Source of the DNA: Mesobacillus jeotgali
GTDB lineage: Bacteria > Bacillota > Bacilli > Bacillales > Cytobacillaceae
DNA length: 64,000 bases
Direction: 5' to 3'
Assembly (NCBI RefSeq): GCF_014856545.2
Contig: NZ_CP109811.1
Location: 1,110,001-1,174,000, forward strand
Part shown: positions 210-38,798 of the stretch, in pieces
How the letters are laid out: each line of letters starts with the position of its first letter
Position numbering within the stretch: the first letter of the stretch is position 1
Made by a program: the position numbers and the translations under genes
Notes under the pieces: model-generated
What the model was told of the DNA's origin: nothing
The model's input: the letters and a program-made list of their open reading frames with translations, nothing else
The model's database searches: none

Positions 210-558
210 AGTCTTAATCTCCAGTCGACAAGGAGCCACCTGCTCCATCAAAAGATAGTTCTATTAAAAAACAAATTATTCAAATATATTACTTTTACTT
301 TAACACATAATTGATCATAGTTGCTTTTTTTTTACCTGAAAGTGGATGTCCCCAATAGTTCACTGATTGCCAAACTTTTTTTCAGTTGTGAGGCGGTATA
401 ATCTATAGATAATTACATGAAAATTCAATGTGTATGTACAAAATAGTGTCAAGCATGAATAGTTTTTTCGCTAAAACAGACAGCTAAAAGCGGATTATTG
501 GATACGCTTCATAGCTTGGCGTTATACTAATTTTACAAAATACTACAGGAGGTAAAAA
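210..558. other. 349-bp intergenic region with possible promoters
   Basis: A non-coding stretch between the divergent membrane protein and the glutaredoxin gene. It is AT-rich and contains a TATAAT at about 398-403 and a TATACT at 523-528; the latter is well placed for the glutaredoxin gene at 559, with a poor -35 (TTGGAT, 19-bp spacing). No convincing small ORF or repeat was seen. Confidence 0.4.
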
Positions 559-840
559 ATGACCAAAAGCTCATTAACCCTTTTCACCCGGCCAATGTGA
601 ACAGATTGCCAGGAAGCGAAGGAGTTTCTTTCGCAGAATCATATACCGTATGAAGAAATCAATGTCCAGGGTGAGCCTGAACAGGAAAAAAAACTTAAAG
701 AGCAGACAGGTACAGCGATTGTACCAGCGTTTATTTTTACAAGCGCGAAGCTCTTTTTCATGAAAGACAAGAAGGTACTGATCGGATTCGAAAATAACCG
801 GAGCGAAATAGAAAAACTGGCCGAAAAATTGAAGCAGTAA
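559..840 (+). CDS. Glutaredoxin-like protein with in-frame UGA (candidate selenoprotein)
   Basis: The ATG at 559 follows a strong site (ACAGGAGGT). Codons 1-13 read MTKSSLTLFTRPM, codon 14 is TGA (598-600), and the same frame then continues uninterrupted for 79 codons to TAA at 840. The continuation begins TDCQEAKEFL. Reading TGA as selenocysteine gives a 93-residue thioredoxin-fold protein with active site U-T-D-C where glutaredoxins have C-x-x-C. The cis-Pro region (TGTAIVPAFIF, about residues 50-60) and a C-terminal helix follow, a normal length for the family. A 7-bp hairpin sits 22 nt after the TGA. A role as thiol-disulfide reductant is inferred from the family. The alternative is a pseudogene made by one Cys-to-TGA change. 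The gene ends in its own terminator and appears monocistronic. Confidence 0.7.
616..634 (+). promoter_or_regulatory. SECIS-like hairpin downstream of the in-frame UGA
   Basis: Bases 616-622 (GCGAAGG) pair with 628-634 (CTTTCGC), giving 7 pairs including one G-U and a 5-nt loop AGTTT. The loop begins 22 nt after the TGA and has G as its second base. This fits the known bacterial SECIS rules: a stem-loop within the coding region, loop about 16-37 nt from the UGA, and G in the first two loop positions. SelB binding is inferred; the sequence alone cannot show it. Confidence 0.55.
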
Positions 841-850
841 AAAGACAGGT

Positions 851-885
851 GAGGGTCCGAGTGATAAATTCGGAGCCTCTTTTTC
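851..885 (+). terminator. Rho-independent terminator of the glutaredoxin gene
   Basis: GAGGGTCCGA and TCGGAGCCTC form a 10-position stem with one mismatch around a 9-nt loop, followed by TTTTTC. Confidence 0.8.
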
Positions 886-1045: not shown

Positions 1046-2434
1046 GTGACAACTGGACTTGTTATTTTAAATATTGCAGTTATGCTAGGCATCATTTTTG
1101 TTCTTTTTTATATGCAAAAGAAACATGTATCTTTTTCTAAACGAGTATTCATTGCACTTGGAATAGGGATTGTTTTCGGTTTTGCCTTGCAATTCATTTA
1201 TGGAGCGGGATCGGAAGTTATTATGAAGAGTGCTGACTGGTTCTCGATTGTGGGAAGCGGTTATGTAAAGTTCTTGCAAATGATCGTTATGCCGCTAGTA
1301 TTTATATCGATTTTGGCTGCTTTCACAAAGCTTAAGCTGACCAGTAACATCGGTAAAATCAGTACATTGATTCTTGGGCTGCTGGTGGGTACAACTGCTG
1401 TTGCCGCAGCGGTCGGGATTGCTACTGCGGTTGGTTTCGACCTTGAAGCGGTACAGATCACGCAGGGCGAGGCAGAACAAGCACGTGCTGAGAAGCTGGA
1501 GGAAACGTATGGAGGAATTGAAGGGCGCACAATGCCACAGCAAATTCTTGATCTCTTGCCAGCCAATCCATTTCTTGACTTCACTGGGGCACGACCAACA
1601 TCAACAATATCTGTCGTTATTTTCGCGGCATTCCTGGGAATTGCATACCTTGGAGTCAGGAGAAAGTCTCCTGACCAGGCAGAGCTTTTTGCCAAAATTG
1701 TCGATGCATTTTATGCGGTCATCATGAGGGTGGTCACGCTAATCCTGCGCCTGACTCCATATGGAGTTCTTGCAATCATGACAAAGACCGTTGCCTTAAG
1801 TGATTTCGACGCAATCTTAAAACTAGGTAAATTCGTAGCAGCTTCATATGTTGCGCTTGCAATCATGTTCATCATCCATTTACTGTTACTTACGATTGCT
1901 GGTTTGAATCCAGTCACATATGTTAAAAAAGCATTTCCGGTTCTCGCGTTCGCCTTCACATCAAGAACGAGTGCCGGGGCATTGCCGTTGAATATCAAAA
2001 CTCAACGCTCTCTGGGAGTACCTGAAGGGATTGCAAACTTTGCCGGTTCATTCGGCTTATCGATCGGGCAAAACGGCTGTGCCGGGATTTATCCTGCGAT
2101 GCTGGCAGTTATGATTGCACCGTCGGTTGGTGTTGACCCATTGACACCATCATTCATCGCAACCGTGATCGCGATCGTAGCTATCAGCTCATTCGGAGTT
2201 GCAGGAGTCGGTGGTGGTGCGACATTTGCGGCGTTATTAGTACTTTCAGCGTTGAACCTGCCGGTTGCCCTTGCTGGGTTGCTGATTTCCATCGAACCAT
2301 TGATTGATATGGGGCGTACCGCTGTAAATGTGAGCGGCTCGATGACTTCGGGTATCCTCACAAGCAGAATCACAAAAGAAATCGATTCATCCACCTATAC
2401 AGATATGAATCAAAAAATTGAAGCAGAAGCTTAA
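1046..2434 (+). CDS. tcyP: L-cystine:sodium/proton symporter TcyP
   Basis: A 462-residue membrane protein of the dicarboxylate/amino-acid:cation symporter family. It starts at GTG after AGGGGGGAAAG. The N-terminal helix is followed by YMQKKHVSFSKRVFIALG, and the C-terminal half carries the family re-entrant loop features (FAFTSRTSAGALPLNIKTQ, about 303-321; SIGQNGCAGIYPAM, about 342-355) and the substrate-site helix DMGRTAVNVSGS (about 425-436). These segments and the length match B. subtilis TcyP, which imports L-cystine for sulfur supply. The gene is monocistronic, with a good sigma-A promoter and possible CymR site upstream and a dispersed repeat plus bidirectional terminator downstream. 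Confidence 0.88.
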   Translation: MTTGLVILNIAVMLGIIFVLFYMQKKHVSFSKRVFIALGIGIVFGFALQFIYGAGSEVIMKSADWFSIVGSGYVKFLQMIVMPLVFISILAAFTKLKLTSNIGKISTLILGLLVGTTAVAAAVGIATAVGFDLEAVQITQGEAEQARAEKLEETYGGIEGRTMPQQILDLLPANPFLDFTGARPTSTISVVIFAAFLGIAYLGVRRKSPDQAELFAKIVDAFYAVIMRVVTLILRLTPYGVLAIMTKTVALSDFDAILKLGKFVAASYVALAIMFIIHLLLLTIAGLNPVTYVKKAFPVLAFAFTSRTSAGALPLNIKTQRSLGVPEGIANFAGSFGLSIGQNGCAGIYPAMLAVMIAPSVGVDPLTPSFIATVIAIVAISSFGVAGVGGGATFAALLVLSALNLPVALAGLLISIEPLIDMGRTAVNVSGSMTSGILTSRITKEIDSSTYTDMNQKIEAEA

Positions 2435-25410: not shown

Positions 25411-25461
25411 CGGGTGTTTTGACTGGCTACGTTGATTATGTTATTATTCATTTATGAAAAG

Positions 25462-25552
25462 TCCTCTAGGGTTCCGCAGCTTTGCTGGACTGGTCCGAGA
25501 GAGGGCGCACAGGAAATGCCTGTGTACACGGAGGGATAAAAACCCGGGAGAT
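25462..25552 (+). ncRNA. Guanidine-I riboswitch (ykkC RNA)
   Basis: The conserved ykkC elements are all present in order: CTAGGGTTCCG, CTGGTCCGAGAG, ACACGGAGGGA and AAAACCCGGGAGA. It lies directly upstream of an SMR-type exporter. Binding of guanidinium to this class disrupts the following terminator and turns on efflux genes (known for the class). Confidence 0.93.
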
Positions 25553-38626: not shown

Positions 38627-38651
38627 CATAGTGTAGAAACTAAATAATAAC

Positions 38652-38742
38652 CACAAGGGGAGCTGCGTAAAGTAGCTGAGAGTGAGCGGCCGAGTTCTTA
38701 CCCTTTGAACCTGTTAGTTAATGCTAGCGAAGGAATGTGGAT
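38652..38742 (+). ncRNA. TPP riboswitch (THI element)
   Basis: The conserved THI-box features appear in order: AAGGGGAGCTGCG, GTAGCTGAGAGTGAG, ACCCTTTGAACCTG, and TAATGCTAGCGAAGGAATG. Thiamine pyrophosphate binding represses downstream thiamine genes; here a terminator hairpin follows and thiT is the only gene. Confidence 0.95.
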
Positions 38743-38750
38743 GCGATAGG

Positions 38751-38798
38751 AAAGCAATCTTGGGAATCCTATATCGATCCCCACGATTGCTTTTTTTG
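38751..38798 (+). terminator. Riboswitch-controlled terminator before thiT
   Basis: AAAGCAATCTTGGG pairs with CCCCACGATTGCTTT (one internal mismatch), followed by TTTTT. Confidence 0.85.

Follow-up and report, generated by a model that had tools for sequence, protein, structure and literature searches.

Glutaredoxins with a UxxC active site are an established selenoprotein family according to the passages that treat them in four sources (PMC9312934, PMC13188914, PMC1794560, PMC1088965). The hosts named in the relevant parts of these papers are clostridia and Geobacter (PMC1794560), together with Sargasso Sea contigs (PMC1088965), whereas the subfamily described here was found in Bacillales. 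Three selenoproteins had already been listed for this order in 2006 (PMC1794560, in the excerpt concerned), a glutaredoxin goes unnamed in the excerpted text of PMC5029168, and we found no title reporting the subfamily among the open-licence PMC papers retrieved for the gene or its setting. The gene that we analysed resembles the UxxC selenoproteins in its glutaredoxin domain (PF00462) and in the predicted selenocysteine (Sec) that opens its active-site motif. An enzyme paper on a UxxC selenoprotein glutaredoxin by Kim et al. (2011) is cited in PMC9312934 and PMC13188914.

The gene occupies positions 559..840 of the forward (+) strand of a 64 kb stretch of Mesobacillus jeotgali DNA, the whole of which was analysed and is hereafter called the window. 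As shown by comparison of sequences, its in-frame TGA has long been conserved in the lineage, a hairpin at 616-634 accompanies this TGA, and predicted bacterial Sec genes are encoded in the same genome. Although a stop codon seems to interrupt it, the gene is almost certainly whole, with this codon read as selenocysteine. We assign a probability of about 0.96 to the reading that it encodes a small glutaredoxin with Sec14 as the catalytic residue and Cys17 as the likely resolving one.

A glutaredoxin frame with TGA at the active site

The frame starts with an ATG at 559, 6 nt behind the ribosome-binding site AGGAGG (547..552, +, read off the sequence), and continues through 13 codons, a TGA at 598-600 (+) and 79 sense codons up to a TAA at 838-840, which amounts to 93 codons plus the stop. 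The TGA is codon 14 and stands at the first position of the C-x-x-C motif, giving U-T-D-C, so that the encoded Sec would be the putative active-site nucleophile. With the TGA counted as one residue, the 93-residue product scored 47.1 bits against the Pfam profile PF00462 (gathering score 22.9). The first-pass annotation had described an excellent ribosome site, a TGA replacing the first Cys of C-x-x-C after 13 codons, and 79 further sense codons completing a glutaredoxin, all of which was borne out. A standard gene caller would stop this gene at 13 codons.

Positions 14, 17, V55 and P56 were invariant across 16 aligned rows (in 14 of which the TGA was rendered as C). Both the C/U-x-x-C active site and the V-P site, which we take to be the cis-Pro mark, are present in the window protein. 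Against solved structures, the glutaredoxin profile matched 1fov best (42.4 bits). A structure model computed from 11 close sequences was poor (mean pLDDT 54.6), with a predicted order of strands and helices that fits the thioredoxin fold.

An intrinsic-terminator-like hairpin followed by a T run lies 3' of the gene (856..884, +). The consensus scan that detected it retrieved 3 such sites in the region vs 0.4 expected, the other two being located inside the glutaredoxin gene itself. With its own ribosome site and this terminator-like hairpin, the gene may be transcribed alone. Its neighbour, which is outside the recoding, encodes a sodium:dicarboxylate symporter family transporter (PF00375, 321.7 bits; 1046..2434, +) that presumably resembles the cystine importer TcyP. 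This transporter was found downstream in the flank examined of all ten named relatives (about 2 kb away in one) and in the flank of 18 of the 19 genus genomes carrying the glutaredoxin gene. Elsewhere, the window contains two Rfam aptamers, a Guanidine-I riboswitch (25455-25552, +) and a TPP riboswitch (38646-38752, +).

The TGA could have arisen by mutation of a Cys codon, leaving a pseudogene that yields a peptide of 13 residues; TGA is a single change away from TGC or TGT, both of which are used at this site by Cys forms. Its distribution and the state of the frame behind it speak against this. Codon 14 was TGA, and not Cys, in 10/10 loci from named genomes (titled as five Mesobacillus, three Bacillus sp., one Cytobacillus and one Chryseobacterium) and, in a search of 193 genomes of the family, in 19 of the 21 genomes of the genus, our own included, among the matches listed; the two sets may overlap. 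No orthologue appeared in the other two genus genomes, G079 (66% complete) and G089 (99%), among the matches listed, which extend to E about 1.4e-7. Past the TGA, dN/dS was 0.03-0.12 in 15 of 17 comparisons within the genus, dS being saturated in the other two, and of the 51 TGA members checked just one had another stop in frame within 65 codons (the frameshifted G139; G060 is outside this count). We looked for relaxed constraint downstream and found none; the frame after the TGA is, judging from these substitution ratios, under purifying selection. Considering also the near-frozen synonymous sites and the paired changes of the hairpin presented below, we regard the chance that the gene is a pseudogene as negligible. 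As a side observation, the locus titled Chryseobacterium sp. (L025, JAGGQZ010000024.1) has the neighbours of the Mesobacillus loci and is perhaps misnamed.

The family search also retrieved more distant TGA copies in twenty further genomes, three of them with two each, and Cys copies in two genomes (G041 and G050), in both cases among the matches listed, beyond whose limit of E about 1.4e-7 weaker members may lie. In an order-wide sample, the subfamily was detected in 48 of 397 genomes (E up to 1e-12), 11 of which belong to the family. The remaining 37 comprised 10 with TGA, 21 with Cys, 4 without CxxC and 2 with partial matches, and Cys homologues accordingly exist at the same site within the order. 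A phylum-wide sample produced matches in 3 of 398 genomes (E up to 1e-14), two of the genus and G877, which has a TAG in frame; 13 candidates per genome were scored in both of these wider searches. We thereby examined 77 members with UxxC or CxxC, 52 with TGA and 25 with a Cys codon, leaving outside this set the relatives without CxxC (G399, the second copy of G442, G298, G228 and G421) and the partial matches (G288 and G255). A phylogenetic tree of 76 of these members, from which the frameshifted G139 was left out, required 4 switches from one residue to the other (Sec or Cys), of which at least 2 are backed by well-supported branches (28 of the 70 inner branches are well supported).

A hairpin conserved together with the TGA

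The candidate SECIS element of the gene is the hairpin GCGAAGG-AGTTT-CTTTCGC (616..634, +), which consists of a 7-bp stem and an AGTTT loop (623-627) with G in second position, the first loop base being separated from the TGA by 22 nt. The bSECIS model, as given in the portion of PMC13188914 that defines it, calls for a loop of 3-9 nt, a stem of 4-16 bp, a G as one of the first two loop bases, a spacing of 16-37 nt and an energy of at most -7.5 kcal/mol. The window hairpin falls inside these limits, with a spacing of 22 nt, an AGUUU loop whose second base is G and an energy of -9.8 kcal/mol, in agreement with the first-pass description of it as lying within bacterial SECIS limits. The 28-nt stretch containing it folds at -9.8 kcal/mol (z -2.7, with 3/200 shuffles as good) and a 48-nt stretch folds more weakly (z -1.5, 14/200 shuffles as good). 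Since the z-score of the longer stretch is only -1.5, the fold of the single sequence is not decisive, and the comparison of relatives decides instead. The 15-base core of the hairpin has one exact occurrence in the 64 kb window; when up to 2 mismatches are allowed, 2 sites match, vs 1.26 expected by chance.

Across the 52 TGA members (counts that include the frameshifted G139), 351 of 364 stem cells are paired, all seven pairs are formed in 41 and the G at loop position 2 is present in 51, having been lost in G060. In contrast, the 25 Cys members have 83 of 175 stem cells paired, the whole stem in none of them and the loop-position-2 G in 6. The distinct TGA sequences number 47; at pair 20-36, they have CG in 31, GC in 8, UA in 6 and no pairing in 2, and pair 19-37 is GC in 33, UA in 3, UG in 1 and unpaired in 10. 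These sequences contain 18 stem cells changed on both sides vs 3.8 in shuffles, and their stem covariation is 0.247 vs a maximum of 0.098 with slid partners, two measures that are inflated by related sequences as kinship was left uncontrolled. Neither the number of pairs with two-sided change (378/500 shuffles as high) nor the number of further pair types (245/500 as high) exceeded the shuffles in the same 47 sequences, and the two-sided changes are confined to the two outer pairs, 20-36 and 19-37. We interpret the stem changes as partly compensatory.

Synonymous diversity in the hairpin codons 20-25 was 0.037 vs 0.40 in 74 other codons across 18 distinct genus sequences, and 9 of 100,000 random draws were as low, in a test that treats codons as exchangeable and excludes codons 15-19 from the comparison set. 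This bears directly on whether the hairpin might be a mere by-product of the peptide that it encodes, A-K-E-F-L-S, which is indeed well conserved in the TGA forms. Conservation of the peptide would hardly bring synonymous diversity down to about a tenth of that elsewhere; moreover, Cys forms with a similar peptide (G219, A-K-E-Y-L-S) use other codons, the pairing in Cys forms reaches just 83/175 overall, and some sisters have G20-C36 for C20-G36 while Ala changes to Gly. We consequently give practically no credence to a by-product and retain the hairpin as an element that goes with the TGA.

Selenocysteine genes and sister loci

The first-pass annotation had named selA, selB, selC and selD as the genes to look for, and all four were found in the 4.84 Mb, single-contig genome to which the window belongs. 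selB scored 364.5 bits (cut-off 242), selC (tRNA-Sec) 67.1 bits (cut-off 47; called tRNA-SeC, tca, by ARAGORN), selA 564 bits and selD 393 bits. The last two genes are divergently oriented about 530 bases from each other, with selB and the tRNA-Sec gene located elsewhere. selD has an in-frame TGA of its own at K-A-G-U-G-C-K (L030 1480-2532, near C1:2599159-2600085). SelD is therefore probably also a selenoprotein, and the genome probably makes at least two.

The rarity of Sec use that had been supposed for Bacilli fails for this family, where the machinery is common: selA was above cut-off in 172/193 genomes and tRNA-Sec was detected in 171/193, a count that missed G050, positive with laxer filters. 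In genus g20 (13 genomes, G165-G177), neither selA nor tRNA-Sec was above cut-off. selB was sought in 43 family genomes and was above cut-off in 40, including 38 of the 39 genomes with the TGA form; the three below cut-off were G171, G041, which has the Cys form, and G079, for which the search detected no orthologue. selA was above cut-off in 48/49 genomes with the TGA form vs 11/23 with the Cys form (Fisher p 1e-6, a hand tally uncorrected for kinship). The Sec genes do not impose the use of TGA, given that selA also occurs in 11 genomes with the Cys form. In G050, selA, selB and tRNA-Sec are all present, yet its glutaredoxin has a Cys codon and keeps 5 of the 7 stem pairs; a switch to Cys through lack of tRNA-Sec was an explanation we rejected once its tRNA-Sec was found with the laxer filters. 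Several genomes have two tRNA-Sec genes, and G044 possesses a second selB beside a tRNA-Sec (G044:C16:63779-65898), its first selB being elsewhere; this pair is possibly a mobile Sec cassette.

One genome, G171, has the TGA form with 6 of the 7 stem pairs and no selA, selB or tRNA-Sec above cut-off. Its glutaredoxin lies on a 99.9-kb contig in the company of copA, a NIR_SIR protein and a Replic_Relax protein (L133 = G171:C10:80000-99000). The likeliest explanation is that a mobile copper element brought the gene in recently, a contaminating contig being also possible (contamination estimate 5%). If the copy is real, only a short peptide is expected there. The persistence of TGA in a genome lacking detected Sec genes, together with the comparative nature of the support for Sec, would be compatible with readthrough by another route, in which a near-cognate or suppressor tRNA inserts another residue without SelB. 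However, the hairpin that accompanies the TGA agrees with the bSECIS model (as excerpted from PMC13188914), the TGA sits precisely on the catalytic Cys, and 48 of 49 TGA genomes have selA. We consider such a route very improbable, if a shade less so than the two alternatives discussed above, and maintain selenocysteine as the predicted residue.

The sister loci provided some clues about function. A P-type-ATPase-like protein was recognized by eye upstream of the glutaredoxin in 15 of 24 of them. The three of these ATPases that were scanned all scored above the cut-off of TIGR01511 (copper-translocating ATPase), and the HAD part of the ATPase was seen in two loci. Other neighbours were seen in one locus each: in G130 a metal-sensing repressor (PF02583), in G092 a CDF exporter, and in G057 a CopC/CopD-like protein that is below its cut-offs. 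A short protein with the PF01077 nitrite/sulphite-reductase domain was also observed near sister glutaredoxins of copper loci (L062:752-1393, L133:12887-13528). The Cys form of G041, a genome where selA, selB and tRNA-Sec were all below cut-off, is arranged as the end of a P-type ATPase, a protein without assigned role, the glutaredoxin and a NIR_SIR protein, an order like that of TGA-form loci such as G158 and G048 (the TGA-form loci being judged by protein starts).

The presence of sister genes in copper-efflux loci suggests a role in repairing thiols when copper or oxidants cause stress; for the window gene, whose own neighbours differ, a copper/thiol-stress role is suggested less strongly. 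As a more general scenario, to which we give somewhat less than even odds, a Bacillales selenoglutaredoxin subfamily partly rides and moves with copper-resistance loci, uses Sec for defence against copper and thiol stress, and has exchanged Sec and Cys for one another on at least two and probably four occasions, its Cys forms being without SECIS. If true, such a subfamily would offer a naturally occurring test of why bacteria retain selenocysteine. Sec and Cys forms occur in related bacteria, once in a like copper-efflux order, and the benefit of Sec is therefore testable side by side.

Proposed decoding and comparison with known selenoproteins

According to the known pathway, SelD would make selenophosphate, SelA would make Sec-tRNA-Sec, and SelB would bind the 616-634 hairpin and deliver Sec-tRNA-Sec at the UGA. 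In the resulting protein, as its family and motif predict, the Sec14 selenolate would attack a disulfide or mixed disulfide and Cys17 would resolve the intermediate. The Sec genes, the TGA shared by relatives, the conserved hairpin and the dN/dS values all support the first-pass preference for recoding over a TGC/TGT-to-TGA mutation.

The kind of protein is already known, a UxxC selenoprotein glutaredoxin, and the subfamily itself passes no NCBIfam cut-off. The best match of the window protein was to the YruB family (TIGR02196, 47.7 bits; cut-off 88.55) and the second best to the Uxx-star family NF041212 (43.5 bits, below the cut-off of 66). It was likewise below the cut-offs of NF041211, NF041114 and NF047338, and the four other subfamily members scanned, which included a Cys form, were above no NCBIfam cut-off. 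The Uxx-star proteins (NF041212, NF041211, NF041114, NF047338) are similar in being short glutaredoxin-like selenoproteins. They differ from the window subfamily in that the latter has a resolving Cys (UxxC), present in 47/47 distinct TGA sequences; the extraction pattern required it, but relatives lacking it would have been noted, as five were. On comparative grounds, the gene would thus add a well-supported selenoprotein subfamily in Bacillaceae to the UxxC glutaredoxins already described.
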